Assembly (NCBI GenBank): GCA_963383645.1
Contig: OY726566.1
Span: forward strand, 96,687,321 to 96,751,320
DNA length: 64,000 nucleotides
Origin: Muscardinus avellanarius
Taxonomy: Eukaryota; Chordata; Mammalia; Rodentia; Gliridae
Direction: 5' to 3'
In this document: one piece after another, positions 47,920 through 63,220 of the stretch
Position numbering within the stretch: position 1 is the first letter of the stretch
Layout: each line of letters begins with the position of its first letter
The notes under the pieces: model-generated
What the model saw: the letters and a program-made list of their open reading frames with translations, nothing else
Told to the model about the DNA's origin: nothing
The model's database searches: none
Program-made: the position numbers and the translations under genes

Positions 47920-49105
47920 AGAGGTAGATAAATCCAATCCAACCACCTTGAACTGTTGGAGAATCTACCCCCAAAAAAGACTGCTCCTGCCCCACATGCT
48001 CAGGAATTCTGGACAACATACTATGTAAAAACAATGCTCAGGATGAGGGCCAGGATGGTGGCAGCAGTGGCCAGTATCTGGGAGAGACAGGTAGATTCAT
48101 TCCAATCAACCCTGAACTGTTGAGGTAATCTCCCCAAAAGTAGACTGCACCTGCTCCACATGCTCAGGAACTCTGGACAACATATTATGTAAGAAAAATG
48201 TTTGGGTGCATCAGATGGAGCCCCACATAGTCGGGTCAGCCGGCGTCATGTGTCCCGGGAGCCAAGGGTGCTCCTGGCCGCTGTGATCCTCTGTGCAGTG
48301 CTGGGACTAGGTGCGCTCGGAGCAGCAGAACCTGCTCTCTGTGGTAAAGTTGTGGGCCTCTGCTCTTGGCAGGGAGATAAAACACATTGCTACTAAGTAC
48401 TTGGGCCCCCAACTCCTGCAAAAGACACATACTGTTTTCTTGTATTAAAAAATATGGAAGAGGGAGGAAGATGACTGCAGCTTCAGCTACAGTGGCGACC
48501 ACGGCCAGAGGGGTATAGGTTGGCAGCAGCTGAATAGGACACGCATCCCTCTGAGAAACCCTGGACAACAGATTATGATTTAATAGCTGATTGGGACAAC
48601 ACACAGAAACATTTCCAGTCATGACTTCCTATATGAAATATAGGAGAGAGAGTAAAAATGGCAGAATTAGAGGCAAGACGGCAGTGCGGTGCCTGCCACT
48701 GCAAGAAAAGTAATTTTTGGAGGGATACCCCAGAAGATTTCCAAAATTAGACTGCTCCTGCCACACATGCACAGGAATACTTAACAACAACATACTCTAG
48801 GAGAGACCAAGAAGGCGGCGGTGACCAGTATTCAGGAAAGCCAGACTCATCCAACCAAATCCATCTAGAATTTTTGAAGAAATCTTCCCAAAGTAGACTG
48901 TTCCTGCCCCAAATGCTCAGGAACTCTGGACAACATATTATGTAAAAAAAAGTTTTGCAGAGATGAAACAAGATGGCGGCAGCCAGTATTGGGGAGAGGC
49001 AGATAGATCCAATCCAATTAACCTTGAATATTTGAAGAAATCTCTCCCAAAGTAGACTGCTCCTGCTGCACATGTGCAGGAAATCTGAACAACATACTCT
49101 GTAAG
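47920..49105 (+). repeat. Monomer array, about 160-bp units
   Basis: Recurring block order: an AAGATGGCGGC-like word, CAGTATT..GGAGAG, ATCCAAT, TTGAAGAAATCT, GTAGACTGCTCCTGC, then GGAACTCTGGACAACATA. AGACTGCTCCTGC-type words sit near 47979, 48139, 48749, 48891 and 49051, so spacing is about 142-160 bp on either side of a different module at 48200-48460. That module (GTCCCGGGAGCC; ACACATACTGTTTTCTTGTATTAAAAAATATGG) has its counterpart at 62985-63205 on minus. Confidence 0.8.
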
Positions 49106-49385
49106 TGTTAGGTTGAAAATAGAGTTAGGGAGTTTTGGAGGGAGGTAAAAACACCAACTGGGTTATCGGAGACCGCTGCTTTATTCAGACCCGGCCCCTC
49201 TGGAGAGTCAGCCAGCCATGGGTAAACTGACCAATGGGCCACACATCTGGAGAGTTGCACATAGTCCTGATTGGCTGGTTGGGTCACGTGGTGGATCGGA
49301 GGCACCGATGTTTTATAGGCGTGCTGATTCTCTCACAACATCTGTAGTCTCACGATGTTTGGCGTCTCGAGACACCTGGAGTCTC
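49106..49385 (-). mobile_element. ERV 3' LTR (shared part)
   Basis: It matches 53196-53474 over the whole length with about 10% differences by eye. On the minus strand it has a TATAAAA box (plus 49311-49317), an AATAAA signal (plus TTTATT near 49180-49185) and a terminal ...CAACCTAACA. The U3 side may continue beyond 49385, where the partner is interrupted. Confidence 0.88.
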
Positions 49386-49663
49386 GCGATATCTCCACTT
49401 CTGGCTTCCGGGGTTCTGCCTCCTGTTCCCGCTAGGAGATCACTTGAGAGAGGGACCCAACTTACCATCCCGGCCTTTTGGTGATAATGGGCAGAGTCTT
49501 AAACTACTTCCTGCTGTCAGGGAGCATCACAGTGGGGGCTTTTGGCCAGGAGAGGTTGGGTCCTCCAGACTTGGGCAGGTGAGAGTATGGCTGCAGCAGG
49601 AGTCGGAGGTTATCCTGGACAGCTTTGTAATGTGAATTTGAGCAGACTTTAACGGATAAGGAG

Positions 49664-49996
49664 CTATTGAAAGAAAAGGAAAATCATGAGAGTGAGTCCT
49701 GGGAAAGGCAGGAGCCCATCAGTTAATGGCCCTTGCCCAGAAGGGAAGGAGCTCAGCAGCTGCTGGCCCTTGCTGCTGGCCCTTGGAGCCCTTCGAAATA
49801 TGAGGTAGTTTGTCACTGGATTTATTAATATGATAGCAGTATTTTTCCTGAGAAAGACGTACAACCACCCTTTTAGCAATGAGTGGGTTTGGGTCAGTCT
49901 GGTCAAATGAAAACATGCTATTGGGTCAGGAGCATCAGTGACAGATTTTAGAGGTTTAATACTTATGGCGGTTTGGCATCTGAAGAGGGAGAGCAC
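49664..49996 (-). pseudogene. ERV env transmembrane-subunit remnant
   Basis: Two overlapping minus frames (49664-49996 and 49719-49916) each contain half of a short region resembling the class I ERV transmembrane subunit around its cysteine motif. A frameshift divides it and the expected cysteine arrangement is not intact. Only about 150 bp separate it from the integrase end, so the surface subunit is essentially deleted. No functional protein can be read. Confidence 0.5.
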
Positions 49997-50147
49997 CGTA
50001 GTATGTAAACAAGTGGACCTGCTAAAATAAAAACATCAAAGAGAATTATGCTGAGAAAAAATGAATCTTAGTAGACCCTAACACTATGCAAGAGAATTTG
50101 TCATGGGACTGTTGTAACGGAGCCCTTTTGAGCTGAGTAAGATGATG

Positions 50148-50910
50148 TCAGTTGGGGTCCCCCAGCAGTTTGGCTGTGGTAGGTGTGGTGAGGAACACTG
50201 TGAAGGGCCCAGGCCACTGTGGTTGCAGATGTTTTGGTTGAAGCGACTTGTGGAGGACTTGATCCCCTGGCTTAAGGGCCTTGACTGCAGGATGTGGAGC
50301 TGGTTCTTCAGTCCTGGGTTGGGGAAGATACCAGTCTGCATGTTCCCTAAGAAGGTGTCTGAGAAAAGACAAGTAAGAAAGATAAGAAGACAAAGGAGGG
50401 GGGTCCGAAGGGAGAGCGTGATTAAGCAGGAAAGAGTGACTGTACAGCAATTCAAAGGGGCTCATAAAGGTGGGGCTTTGAGGGGTGGCCCTCATACAGG
50501 GAAGGGGCTAGTGGCAGGAGTTCAGACCATGATACTCGCAGCTCTAGAGAGAGTTTTGTTAGGTGGTTCTTAAGGATCCCATTCATTTTTTCTACCTTTC
50601 CTGATGACTGCAATTGACATGGGATGTGAAGCTTCTATGAAATGTCAAGAGCTTGTGCCACCTGTTGAGTAACCTTAGAAATAAAAGCTGTTCCGTTATT
50701 AGACTGTAAGGAATCAGGGAGTCCAAACCGAGGGATGATGTCCGAGCATAGAACATTGGCCACCATGTTGGCTGTCTCATCCTTTGAGGGGAAGCCTCTA
50801 CCCAACCTGTTAGGGCATCAACTATGGTAAGAAGATATTTAAGTTTTTGTGAGGCGGCATATGGGTGAAGTCAATTTGCCGGTCTTGTCCTGGCAAGTGT
50901 CCTTTCATTT
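50148..50910 (-). pseudogene. ERV pol integrase, core and C-terminal domain, broken
   Basis: On the minus strand, scattered frames give a gammaretrovirus-like integrase in order. There is an IDFTHM word near 50880, then a region ending in SNNGT at 50684-50713, where the family has an acidic catalytic residue and this copy reads Asn. A GKVEKM word follows near 50600, and the C-terminal domain (frame 50148-50495, with SPFELLY and PGDQVL words) is still open. Stops and frameshifts break the core. This identifies a class I ERV related to the HERV-H/HERV-F group of gammaretrovirus-like elements. Confidence 0.85.
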
Positions 50911-51407
50911 GGTGGGTAGAAAAAGAGGGGGCGAAGGCCTCCTTGAGGAAGCATAGCAGTGCAAGTAGAACAGGGGGCACTGACTTTACTAATCAGGTGC
51001 TGCAGGAGAGGAAAATAAAACAAGGGGCTTAGGAAATGCTTCAGCACCATAGGTCCCACGTAAAGGTAATTGTGTATTAGGCTAATGGCCTTTTTGGCCT
51101 GAGCTTCAGGCAGAGCAATCTTATCCTGTAAAAGAGGGCCTGTAGTGCGTGGACAGGAGAGCTTGCTGTCAATCCCCTGTGCTAAGATTGGAAAAGGAAA
51201 AACTAGAACCTGAAAGGATGGAGGGACTGAGCAGGCAACCAAAAAGGAGACTGGCTTACTGCTACCTGGAGAGTTACTTTGGTCTGGCAAGGAGGATGAA
51301 GGTTGAGGGATCCAGGAGCCATCAGTCTTCTGCCAGGCTGAGTAGGGCCAGTGGCGGGTCCTTGTCTGGAAAAGTAGTCCTCCTGTGTTGAGGCACCTGG
51401 GGCTCAC
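50911..51407 (-). pseudogene. ERV pol, integrase N-terminal zinc region and upstream remnant
   Basis: The open minus frame 50871-51407 ends in an integrase zinc-binding region. The Cys pair is present as CSTC, but the second His position reads Tyr (IHNYLYVG). The N-terminal 90 residues or so are not recognisable as reverse transcriptase or RNase H, so most of pol is missing upstream. Confidence 0.7.
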
Positions 51408-53172
51408 CGCTTTTCCAAGGGCACTGTTCCAGTGACCCTCCTGGCCACACTCCGGCTTGGTCTGATTGGTGGGCGTGGCCTTGGGGCACTTGAGGCAGGT
51501 TCCTGGAGGTAGTCATCTTTTCTGTCCTCCACCCCTACGTGGTGCTCCAGAGGGCTGAGCCGCCACCACCAGCCACAGGGCAGTCGGAGTGCACACTCCA
51601 TCTCTGCCTGTTCCTCTCTGGAATTAAAACTTTAAATGCCATGTTAACCAAATCTTGGATAGGGGTTTAAGGACCATCCTCAGCCTTTCTTAATTTTTTT
51701 GAAAAGCCTCCTGAGTTGGTTCCTTAAGGGAGGATGGCAGAGGGAACAGAGCGGGTTAGAGTGGGAGGCTGCCCTGGGATAGGATGGTGACCGGGGCGGT
51801 GAGGAGAGAACCAATGGATCAGGATCTTCAGAAAGTGGTGCCTACAAGACAGCCAGGTCAGATGCTGGCATCCACGTGTCACCACAAAATGTGGACTGTG
51901 CCTGTGACTCAGCAAAATTGCAGGCCAAGATGGCGACTGTGTAATGTCACAAGGTCGCGACCAACATGGTGACTGTGACGTCACCAGGCAGCAACTACAC
52001 GCCATCACAAAATGGCAGCTGGTGGGAAAATGGCAGCTGATGAGAGAGAGCATTTGGAGGGATGGTAATGCAGAAAAAAAAACCCTGGACATAAAGACTT
52101 AGGACCCACTTACCAGACCACTTACAAAAATTGTTAACCATTCTTGGGTCACCACAACCCATTACCCAACTGGTATCAAGGCCAAACAGACATTCAGGGC
52201 ATAAGTCCTCTGCTAGTTTAAAGGTTCGACTTCCCATAATTGGTTTGCAGGTGAAAATGATGAACAGGATATAGGTGTTCCCGTTTTCCTGATCAATTGT
52301 TTGGAAACAGGACTTAAGAGATTGGGAAAGATGTCTCAGTCCCTTCTCAAAAACCAGAGGATGACCTGGTCATCCAGAGGGTGGTCCCAGTGGACTGGGG
52401 GACAGTGAGTCACCAAGCGCTTGGATTTCGGGGTCCCAATGGACCGGAAGACCCAAGTCCTTAACCCGCTAACCAAGGGAAGCGGAGGGAGCTTACCAGA
52501 GTGAAGTGATGCTGGCCAGCGCTGGCTGCAGCAGAAGCGCTGAGAAGCTGCTGGGGGCACGGTGGAGCCAGGGTGCACAGAGCCTGTGCCTGGTGTGGGC
52601 AGCACTGGCGGCTGGCATGGGCAGAATCACACGGTGGCACCAGGCACGTAGCAGATGCTGAGGCCGGGCCATCGAACGCACCACATGTGAGCCTGGCTCC
52701 GTGTAGGCGGAACAGAGCAGTGGCAGCATGTGAAGCTATGCCTGCAAGTCAAGCCTGACATAGGTGACTGTAGCAGACACCGAGGCTGGCCTGTGTGCCA
52801 GAGGTTCTGGCTGTGACCAGAGCCGAGCCAGAACAGTGGTTGTGGGAAGTCCAAATGGCGGGTAGAGGTCCTGGCCTGCACAAGCAATCAGCAGGTTAAG
52901 CAGATGCCAGTGGCTGCAGGACGTGCACCCCAGTGAGCCTGGCTCAGGCCGGGTGCAACTGGTGGCTGGCAGAGCCTGCAGTGGCCGCATAGAGACTGCA
53001 AGCGGTGGCAGGATTGGAGCCTGCACGCCATGCAGTGGCAGCGGCACAGGTGGCAGCGGCAGGCTGAGCCATGCCTGTAAGCCAAACACCAGAACCTCTT
53101 GGTTGAGCTGCTGGCAGGTTGGAGAGTCCGGGGCTCAAAAAGAGAGGAATAAAAGTGGGGGAACCCCAAAAC
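51408..53172 (-). mobile_element. ERV leader/gag-side internal region, unrecognised
   Basis: It lies between the 5' LTR/PBS and the pol remnant. It has a candidate donor (minus TCTG|GTAAGTGGG near 52110-52120), a cluster of short diverged repeats with ATGGCG/TGACGTCA words at 51885-52040, and a GC-rich irregular repeat stretch at 52500-53090. No gag domain could be identified. Confidence 0.55.
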
Positions 53173-53174
53173 TC

Positions 53175-53192
53175 CTCCGGGTTCTGGCACCA
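53175..53192 (-). other. ERV primer-binding site
   Basis: Three bases inside the 5' LTR, the minus strand reads TGGTGCCAGAACCCGGAG. The TGG start and position are those of a retroviral PBS. The best match I know is tRNA-Phe (about 14 of 18 positions), so assignment is tentative. Confidence 0.65.
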
Positions 53193-53195
53193 GAA

Positions 53196-53474
53196 TGTTA
53201 GGTTGAAAATAGAGTTAGGGAGTTTAGGAGGAGGTAAAAACACCAACCGGGTTATCAGAGACCGCTGCTTTATTCGGACCCGGCCCCTCCGGAGATTCAG
53301 CCGGCCATGGGGGAAGGGACCAATGGGCCACACATCTGGAGAGTTGTGCATAGTCCTGATCTGCCAGCTGAGTCATGTGGTGGATCAGAGGCACCGATGT
53401 TTTATAGGCATGCCGATTCTCTCACGACATCTGTAGTCTTGCGATGTTTGGAGTCTCGAGGCACCTGGAGTCTC
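53196..53474 (-). mobile_element. ERV 5' LTR, U3-truncated
   Basis: It has the same TATA and AATAAA signals as the 3' LTR. Similarity stops abruptly at ...GGAGTCTC (53474), where a TATG-rich microsatellite begins. The outer U3 end and the target-site duplication therefore cannot be seen. Confidence 0.87.
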
Positions 53475-53533
53475 TTATATGTGTGTGTATATATGTGTGT
53501 GTATATATATGTATGTGTAATGTACATGTATGC

Positions 53534-53600: not shown

Positions 53601-53601
<1 letters not shown>

Positions 53602-53929
53602 GGAGGAAAAAATGGGAACCTCTATAAACGTCCTGCCCACAGTGACAGAGACTGGAGCCCACCATGCGGTGAGGCTGGGTCTGGAGCCAGCGAGGCCGGG
53701 CCCAGAGCCTGTTGTGTGGCAGGCCTGGAACTAGGGCCTGCTCCACAGCAAAGGGCCAGTGGGTTTCTTCAGCTGTGTGTCCAGGAAGCACTAGAAGCTG
53801 CCGCTGCCTCACCTCATCTCTCAGCAGACTTCCAGATCCAAGTGACCTCTATTAAAAAAATTGGTTGTGAGTGGATCATCCTGTCAAAGTTACTCACCTT
53901 CTGGCTTTCAGGTTTTCAGTGAGTGGGAA

Positions 53930-54617
53930 TAAGTGTGGAGAAATAGAAGATCTAATACACTGTTGGTGGGATTGCAAGTTGGTGCAACCACTTTGGAGAA
54001 CAGTATAGAAGGTCCTCAGAAGGAGGAAAACGAACTTACCATATGATCCCGCAATACCAGCTCTGGTATGTACCCAAAAGAATGAAAACTAAAATACCAA
54101 ACTAATGCATGAACAACCATGTTCATAGCTGCACAGTTCACCATTGCCAAACTGTGGAACCAGCCAAGATGTCCTTCAACAAGTGAGTAGATTTCAAAAC
54201 TATGGGATATGTACACAATGGAATTTTGCCCAGCTATAAGGGAGAACAAAATTATGGCATTTACAGTGAAATGTCGCAAAAAAATAAGAAATCAGATGTT
54301 TTTCTTAATTTGCAATATATTAGGAAGAAATGGGTGTAACAGGAGGAATCTAGATGAAAAAGGGACCCTATAGAGGAGCAATTAGGGTGACATATCTAAG
54401 GCGATAAGAGGGAGGATAAGGGAAACTGTTTAAAGCACATGATGTACTTAAACTTATCAAAGTCAATCAGGAAGCCAAGCCTGGGTAGGAGGGAGGGGGA
54501 GGGGAGGGGGTAGAGATTGGGTAGGGGCTGATTGGGTGATGTATGAATGTATATTTCCACAAGTTTTTTATCCCATTGAGATGTATGACTACAATGCACC
54601 AATAAAATTTTATTTTT
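53930..54617 (+). mobile_element. L1 end of ORF2 and 3' UTR
   Basis: It starts at GTGTGGAGAAATAGAAG and runs through CACTGTTGGTGGGATTGC, CAGCCAAGATGTCCTTCAAC and the 3' UTR with a strong G-run tract (54487-54512) to CACCAATAAAATTTTA. It is co-linear with 43990-44250 and, reversed, with 57500-58200. Confidence 0.92.
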
Positions 54618-61407: not shown

Positions 61408-61439
61408 TCATGCCTACTTTTCTTTTTTGTATTTCTTTT

Positions 61440-61775
61440 TTATTGGTGCATTGTAATCATATATTACATTGGAATACAAGACGTGAGAGGATATACAAGC
61501 ACACATCATCCAATTAGCCTTCATCCAGCCCCCATCCCATTCCCTCCCCCTCCCTTGATCCCATGCTTGTTTGGTGATTAACTTTGATACATTTGTTTAT
61601 GTACCTCCTGCGTTTTAAAGAGGCTCCATCATCCCCTATTCCATACCCTCTGATTGGTCACCTTAGTTGCTTCACTATAGGGCCCTTTCTATAGCTTGAC
61701 CTCTTCCTGTTGCCCCTTTCCTCCTAGTTTTTGCTGATTAGGGGAAGCCTCTGATTTTTATTTTCTGCGATATTT
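61440..61775 (-). mobile_element. L1 3' UTR module of the composite
   Basis: The plus strand shows TTATTGGTGCATTGTAATCATA, CCATTCCCTCCCCCTCCCTTG and TGGTGATTAACTTTGATACATTTG, co-linear with 57505-57830. It ends near the ORF2/3' UTR boundary. Confidence 0.9.
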
Positions 61776-61799
61776 CTCTGTGCATGCTGCGTTGCAAGT

Positions 61800-62460
61800 A
61801 CCGATCTCACTCTTGACGGCCCCAGTAGTGGCCTAGCTACCCAGTGGACTGATCCAGACCTCTCTGGCTCAAGCAGCAACCTTGCCTCATGGGAGGCCCC
61901 AATTCTGGTCTCGCTGGCCCTGACACCAGCCTAACCCCTCGGCAGGCTCCGATCCCGGCCTCGGAGGCCCCAGCACTGGCCTAGCCTCACGGCAGGCTCC
62001 GATCCCAGCCTTGCTGGCCCCAGCACCGGCTTAACACCTCGGCAGCCTCGGATCCCAGCCTTGGGGGCCCCAGCACTGGCCTTGCCTCACAGCAGGCTCC
62101 AATGATGGCCTCGCTGGCCCCAGCACCAGTCTAACCCCTGGGCAGTCTCCAATCTGGCCTCGGAGGCCTCAGTAGCAGCCTTGCCTCACGGAAGGCTCCG
62201 ATGCCAGCCACTGGCCCTGGCACCAGCCTAACCCCTCGGCAGGCTCTGATCCCAGCCTCAAAGCCCCAGCACCAGCCTTGCCTCATGGCAGGCTCTGATC
62301 CCGGCCTCCCTGGCCCCAGCACCGGCCTAACCCCTCGGCAGGCTCCGATCCCAGCCTCGGATGCTCCAGCACCGGCCTTGCCTCACAGCAGGCTCCAATC
62401 CCAGCTTTGCTGTGTCTGTCACCGGCCTCACCCCTCGGCAGGCTCCAATCCAAGCACCCT
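61800..62460. repeat. GC-rich minisatellite, 50-bp units in 100-bp pairs
   Basis: About 12 units alternate between a form with GCCTCACGGCAGG and a form with AACCCCTCGGCAGG. The second form recurs at about 61941, 62041, 62141, 62238, 62337 and 62437, a 97-100 bp period. Frames through it are repetitive artefacts. Confidence 0.95.
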
Positions 62461-62469
62461 CTTCGCCCA

Positions 62470-63021
62470 ACCAATTGTCCCATGTTCTCAAGGGTGCGTG
62501 GTGGTAGCATTCTGCCTCTGGGGTTATTATTCCAAAGGTTCCAGGTGTAATGCATCAGATCTCTGCCTCCCCTGAGTACTAGCCACTGCCATTTCCACTG
62601 CCTTCACCGTTTCAAATCTTTCCCAAGCTCTTTTTCCACTCTGAATGTTGTCCAGTGTTCCTAAGCATGTATGACGGTAGCATTTGACATTTGGTGTAAT
62701 TTCTCCAAAAAAAAAATAAGGTTGGTAGGATCCAATTTCTGCTTCTCCCGAATACAAGTCTCCACCGCCATCGCGGAGACCGCTTTCAACACCACCTCTC
62801 TCCTTGGTCTCCGCTAAACTCTCTCCTTACAGGTGATGTCCAAGATTCTTAACAATATAGAGAAACAGCAGTACTCCTTCTCAGGGAATTTTTCCATAAG
62901 TTCCAGTGCATTTGGATAAGTTTTGTCTGCATCTCCAGTATCCTGGCATCCGCCATGGCCTTCTTAACCCCTCTCCGATATTTTTTTTTTTCTTTTCCTT
63001 TTCCTTTTTTTTTTTTTTTTA
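62470..63021 (-). repeat. L1-like 5' monomers of the composite
   Basis: On minus, units begin with CGATGGCGGTGG (plus 62764-62777) or CCATGGCGGATG (plus 62949-62960). They continue with TATT/TACTGGAGA..GCAGA and A-rich blocks, and end TAGGAACACTGGACAACATT (plus 62647-62666). Block order matches the array at 47920-49105. Confidence 0.82.
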
Positions 63022-63220
63022 ATAAGAGAAGACAGTATGTGTGGTTTGAGGGGGTAGTGGGATCAGGCACTCAGTAGCACTGTGACCCGGCCCAGTTTCC
63101 CCATGGGTCTGGCATGCTACGTGCGGTCCGGCCCGGGGCCCAGAGTCCCACAACCCAGGCCCCAGCTGGCGAGCCCCATGCGACCCTTGCCCAGGACTCA
63201 GGGTCTCATGCCTACTTTTC

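Follow-up and report, generated by a model that had tools for sequence, protein, structure and literature searches.

The closest described counterparts of the element analysed here are the VNTR composite retrotransposons, which the available part of PMC4432496 calls specific to hominoid primates. SVA elements of hominids have 5' tandem repeats, a GC-rich VNTR of ~50-bp units that varies between copies, a distinct 3' module, an A tail, L1-type target-site duplications (TSDs) and very young subfamilies, all of which recur in the element described below; the SVA features used for this comparison come partly from the accessible text of PMC5753468 and partly from general knowledge. As determined by assay, SVA depends on L1 in trans (PMC7353768, accessible part). 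The LAVA, PVA and FVA elements of gibbons are VNTR composites with exchanged flanking modules, and LAVA also has an L1 piece. Two further groups are related to L1 itself, namely human SpIREs, which arise by splicing within the 5' UTR or between the 5' UTR and ORF1 and are generally dead ends (PMC5860796, in the portion available), and HAL1, which encodes ORF1p (PMC5753468, accessible text).

In the window, i.e. the whole 64,000-nucleotide stretch of Muscardinus avellanarius DNA analysed, positions 61423–63205 constitute a single insertion on the minus strand, bounded by a perfect TSD (TCATGCCTACTTTTC, 15/15 bp) that is read directly at 61408–61422 and 63206–63220. Read in the sense orientation, the order is GC head, A-rich stretch, diverged monomers (~520 bp) and 50/100-bp GC-rich VNTR; beyond the VNTR exit come the L1 3' end and an A-rich tail. 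The parts are as follows.

61408–61422, no strand: TSD copy adjoining the 3' end of the element, an exact 15-bp match to 63206–63220.
61423–61444, minus strand: A-rich tail with an AATAAA signal, read from the sequence.
61437–61792, minus strand: L1 3' module, about the last 32–35 ORF2 codons and the 3' UTR, aligned with L1 3' ends of the window that lie behind ORF2 remains.
61793–61879, minus strand: VNTR exit, the common junction with the L1 module, run through by 40 of 40 scored matches (self included).
61880–62455, minus strand: VNTR of 50/100-bp GC-rich units, 5.8 copies of 100 bp (Tandem Repeats Finder).
62457–62980, minus strand: monomer module of ~3 diverged ATGGCGG-type units (by eye), present in all seven aligned copies and homologous to 47.9–49.1 kb.
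62981–63021, minus strand: A-rich stretch, read from the sequence.
63022–63205, minus strand: GC head, the last unit of a 117–125-bp 5' monomer array and the array exit; the units are tandem in other copies.
63206–63220, no strand: TSD copy adjoining the 5' end of the element, an exact match to 61408–61422.

The 3' end of the element shows 72–73% identity to three L1 3' ends in the window (54257–54607, 57741–57486 and 43373–43141), each of them preceded, on its own strand, by remains of the ORF2 C-terminus. The L1-derived part begins within about the last 32–35 codons of ORF2. Within the VNTR, Tandem Repeats Finder places the 50-bp array at 61924–62455 and the 100-bp array at 61880–62455, and the GC head is one unit of the ~117–125-bp repeat that is tandem elsewhere. 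The longest sense ATG frame in each of seven copies is 41–90 aa, none being longer than 90 aa. The initial annotation had described a composite of GC head, A-rich stretch, ATGGCGG-type monomers, 50/100-bp minisatellite and L1 3' UTR within one perfect 15-bp TSD. That layout holds except in two details: the motif is degenerate in the window copy (GCCATGGCG, GCGATGGCG and GAAATGGCA), and the L1 part starts inside ORF2 and not at the 3' UTR. The motif proper, AAGATGGCGG, is found in an older composite near 48.97 kb, and a scan for ATGGC-type motifs found none in both young copies tested and in one older copy.

A search of the host genome (2.497 Gb in 104 contigs) with the whole block as the query gave 39 further places that matched at 81–91% among the best 40 scored of 12,532 first-look candidates; this and all further candidate totals are loose first looks and not copy numbers, and the scored matches are the best ones. 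At 18 of these 39 places an alignment crosses the boundary between VNTR and L1 module, and inclusion of L005, L006 and L008 in a further comparison brings the number to 21. With the 3' module and VNTR exit as the query (2,903 candidates), all of the best 40 matches, self included, span the exit, the others at 95–97%, and VNTR sequence lies immediately upstream of the 3' module in all five copies fetched from that search. Three copies (L055, L057 and L058) are 5'-truncated within the VNTR.

Three generations with a common module order are present: an old one, that of the window copy and a very young one. The first is represented in the window at 47.9–54.6 kb on the plus strand, as an older relative of the 61.4-kb element that is split by an LTR-type insertion. 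It comprises the following parts.

47932–49105, plus strand: monomers, a head-like stretch (about 48225–48462) and monomers; 39 other scored copies at 84–88%.
53601–53870, plus strand: short VNTR, ~2 units by eye, z 12.6 against shuffles; at the same place in L065 and L066.
53934–54262, plus strand: ORF2 C-terminal remnant, located by tblastn with the ORF2 of the young L1.
54257–54607, plus strand: L1 3' end, 72% identical to the window element.

The LTR-type insertion occupies 49106–53480, with a similar stretch of ~270 bp starting near 49106 and near 53198 (by eye). Four modules of the 61.4-kb element match their own generation-1 counterparts far above shuffles (z 8.4, 14.0, 12.6 and 85.9), which they do not do against the other parts. 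A search with the left module of generation 1 gave 3,358 candidates, with 39 others at 84–88% among the best 40 scored (self included). Two other generation-1 copies (L065 and L066), read downstream, have the same order, with ~2 and ~5 VNTR units by eye and an ORF2 remnant that runs from aa ~1124 and ~1138 onward, respectively. Generation 1 is characterised by 2–5 repeat units (by eye) and this longer ORF2 remnant. A TSD was sought for the window generation-1 copy and none was found.

Generation 2 includes the window copy, L002, the older copies in L003 and L007, and L008, with pairwise K2P distances of 0.05–0.08 in the monomer module and 0.04–0.08 in the 3' module. In L003, a SINE-like insert (L003:3236–3443, by eye) lies within the older copy's 3' module.

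The first young copies seen were a nested one, which has the TSD AAAATGCAGGAGATAC and interrupts the older L007 copy in the 3' module, and a second (Y2) near L003. With the 3' module of the nested copy as the query, 39 others match all 471 bp without a difference (best 40 of 1,490 candidates), and with its left module 39 others match ~100% of 491 bp, with 1–2 differences as judged by bit score (best 40 of 1,227). Five young copies beyond the query have one left-module difference each; together with the query, these six lie in different flanks (by eye) and carry 4–10 head monomers. Three young copies read to both ends have the TSDs AAAAATGCTAAAGATA, AAAAACTGCTAGTTGA and AGAAATGTCTTTTTG, and their 3' modules differ at 0–1 of 357 positions. 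Y2 differs from the nested copy and three other young copies at 3–4 of the 357 3'-module positions. Because dozens of the newest copies share hundreds of bases without a single difference, the family probably jumped very recently. The A-rich tails of L060 and L061 (L088 and L090) contain an extra ATTACC that is absent in L062 and the nested C3 copy, a pattern which suggests source-copy lineages within the young generation.

The VNTR differs in length between young copies that are otherwise identical. Pairing of the left and right young matches (40 each) gave eight complete copies with 1,219–4,665 bp between the queries, and the differences from the shortest of the eight fall 1–6 bp below whole multiples of 50. 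The left–right gaps in L060, L061 and L062 are 3,267, 4,164 and 2,417 bp, respectively; Tandem Repeats Finder counts 78 of the 50-bp units in Y2, and at one locus (C1:6.706–6.718 Mb) the VNTR exceeds 6 kb. Given the varying gaps between near-identical flanking modules, the number of VNTR units changes fast while these modules remain almost the same.

Intact L1s are present in the same genome. Open stop-to-stop frames of 329 codons (ORF1) and 1,279 codons (ORF2) were found in 8 of 16 fetched L1 loci, and 10 of the 15 other L1 loci match L021 at 98.9–99.5% over the common part. This young L1 family lies at L019–L030, L033 and L034, with L021 as the member compared. The host genome thus holds young L1s, unlike the ground squirrel, which the available part of PMC5857283 lists among mammals with quiescent LINEs or SINEs. 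Comparison of the 5' and 3' UTRs of L021 with the composite gave no similarity above shuffles, only short words being shared, and the possibility that the composite ends in the 3' UTR of today's intact L1 was rejected. The suggestion of the initial annotation that the element uses its L1 3' end is hence unsupported as a hook to the current L1, since the 3' UTR of the intact young L1s is unrelated. Given the unrelated UTRs, the element would not depend on the 3' sequence of the current L1, and mobilisation in trans via the A tail is most likely and the best-supported interpretation.

At C1:6.706–6.718 Mb (L009, L067, L068 and L069), a young composite breaks off in the 3' module and continues in the same orientation as a young L1. 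The L1 part is 5'-truncated, extends from inside ORF1 to the A tail and is 99.4% identical to L021 over the part read. No composite 3' module was found in ~300 bases behind the A tail of this L1, and there is no clear microhomology at the junction (at most AT). Towards its 5' end the chimera consists of VNTR over all of the >6 kb read, the outermost 3.2 kb included. This chimera is a candidate product of template switching by the L1 reverse transcriptase, possibly reflecting shared machinery; a neighbouring insertion combined with a deletion is also possible.

As to the origin of the family, a tentative account, possible and somewhat doubtful, is that of an internally deleted or spliced L1, in which one L1 of an extinct lineage would have supplied the 5' module (as its 5' UTR) as well as the 3' end, ORF1 and most of ORF2 having been removed by splicing or deletion, as in SpIREs. 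The 3' module is indeed L1, generation 1 kept a longer ORF2 remnant (aa ~1124/1138 onward), and ATGGCGG-type motifs together with tandem 5' monomers resemble L1 promoters. However, the head and monomer modules have no match in 26 loci with ORF1 hits (21 distinct places, mostly young L1s, the loci with 1.5-kb flanks holding part of the 5' UTR), and no L1 with this 5' module was seen there, which does not favour the spliced-L1 reading offered by the initial annotation. Moreover, in the two generation-1 copies that were read downstream the next parts are directly the VNTR and the ORF2 end, and the VNTR is without a counterpart in the young L1. The deleted-L1 account concerns origin and is compatible with mobilisation by L1 in trans.

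The hallmarks of an L1-mobilised non-autonomous retrotransposon, i.e. TSDs, an A-rich tail and 5' truncation, are all found in the family. Perfect TSDs of 13–16 bp, all different from one another, bound 10 of 21 copies, namely the window copy, L002, C13:23.9M, C11:12.7M, L055, young C3, young C6, L060, L061 and L062 (each at least 13 bp). A clean TSD of at least 13 bp is absent from the other 11 of the 21. In four of them it is weak or ambiguous (L003 older, 9 bp; L058, 11 bp; C19:31.7M, 10 bp and A-rich; C9:22.3M, 14 bp, running into an opposite L1 end), in C9:86.7M it is imperfect (14/16 by eye), and in six (C10:60.7M, C11:62.6M, C1:96.4M, C3:66.2M, L008 and L057) none was found. This set leaves out L054, L056 and, in L007, the older host copy. 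When the flanks of the 10 clean-TSD copies were paired wrongly as a control, 89 of the 90 pairings had 6–10 bp in common and one had 13 bp. Long words do occur by chance, L002 also having a 14-bp word away from the insertion ends (250 bases upstream searched).

The L1 endonuclease prefers TT before an A/G-rich start. Such a TT is present at 6 of 12 insertion points (window, L002, young C3, L060, L061 and L062), as judged by eye and without a background count. The young C6, C11:12.7M and C13 points have an A-rich start without TT, and those of L003 older, L055 and L058, also without TT, fit the pattern poorly (all by eye). The tails of the copies are A-rich, with AATAAA in the window copy.

Segmental duplication or satellite-like expansion, in place of retrotransposition, would suit the large tandem arrays (>6 kb at one locus), but the flanks of the six young copies differ (by eye), and perfect TSDs, A-rich tails and 5' truncation occur among the tested copies; this very improbable explanation was rejected on the different flanks and the TSD control with mismatched flanks. 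The idea that separate insertions and a local minisatellite came together by chance has the mixed composition in its favour and nothing beyond; it deserves practically no credence and was rejected, as the same junctions are found again at tens of dispersed places and the TSDs differ between copies. The window block is therefore an older copy of a dispersed mobile-element family without an evident protein gene. The initial annotation had proposed a non-autonomous family moved by L1, to be recognised by many copies with a common minisatellite-to-3' junction and independent TSDs; the junction at 21 of 39 other places and in 40/40 scored 3'-module matches, with mutually different TSDs in 10/21 copies, bears this out. 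Neither outcome named there as telling against a family, a junction unique to this locus or a chance assembly, was encountered.

Compared with the known systems, the central GC-rich VNTR of ~35–50-bp units, variable in number, by which SVA and LAVA are recognised has its equivalent in the 50/100-bp units and the 1.2–4.7-kb gaps of the eight young pairs, a likeness of layout. Unlike SVA, the element has a 117–125-bp monomer array and further monomers at the 5' end, and an L1 end at the 3' end instead of a HERV-K10 part. No CCCTCT hexamer array appeared among the Tandem Repeats Finder results for seven copies, the fuller copies starting in the 117–125-bp monomer array. It resembles LAVA, PVA and FVA as a VNTR composite, but these have the hominoid VNTR and an Alu-derived region in common (PMC5753468, accessible text). 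Like a SpIRE, it could be an L1 without its coding part; unlike SpIREs, the family amplified over three generations and has a VNTR. It is also like HAL1 in being a non-autonomous L1 relative, and a HAL1-like family in the host genome (L031 and L032) has a related 3' end; in contrast to HAL1, seven copies of the composite have no ORF longer than 90 aa.

The HAL1-like copies (L031:1430–4340 and L032) have AAGATGGCGACCGAG near the 5' end and open ORF1 frames of 337 and 331 codons, with no further frame of 150 codons before the L1 3' end related to that of the composite. The apparent TSD of L031 is AATAGTTGGAACAC (by eye).

A SINE with a pol III head was rejected, as Rfam (E up to 1) gave no 7SL/SRP, tRNA or 5S match in the window copy; the two matches listed were both to SOX2OT and below threshold (17.7 and 16.1 bits, against a cut-off of 70). 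With no Rfam match, no hexamer array and no ORF1, the element is therefore not classed as SVA/LAVA, HAL1 or SINE. It works like SVA and LAVA without shared parts having been found, and is probably an independent VNTR composite retrotransposon. No published rodent or squirrel VNTR composite was found among titles and abstract openings of the open-access literature; the family may already have a name in Dfam or Repbase.

The explanation that the sequence data make very probable is a family of retroelements built on a VNTR core, without an evident coding frame: the element's own 5' repeat array likely drives its transcription, and L1 proteins likely act in trans to copy the RNA via target-primed reverse transcription. 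Some L1s carry tandem 5' monomers with promoter function and, by analogy, the 117–125-bp monomer array is the predicted promoter. Polyadenylation would occur at the AATAAA of the L1-derived 3' end. Trans mobilisation through the A tail is accepted for SVA and LAVA, and the RNA of the element may be captured by L1 ORF2p in the same way. Generation 1 may have arisen by fusion of the 5' module, a short VNTR and an L1 3' end without ORF1; most of the ORF2 remnant would have been lost in generation 2, and both tandem arrays would then have expanded in generation 3.

It is likely, judging from the copies compared, that an SVA-type VNTR composite arose here independently, in a lineage other than the hominoid primates, continues to jump today and has its whole history in one genome: a few-unit ancestor, a middle generation and an exploding young one with up to ten head monomers and >70 VNTR units. 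If so, a growing tandem core would be a recurrent, selected route to a good L1 passenger. Given the description of VNTR composites as hominoid-specific (PMC4432496, available part), a second family with the same layout and apparently no common parts would be a natural replicate of the hominoid composites. The features common to both families (tandem GC-rich core, 5' repeats and A tail) could reveal what an RNA needs for uptake by L1, and the ordered generations would show how a VNTR core grows. In the host species, the young copies, being identical, would serve as markers and might act as mutagens.
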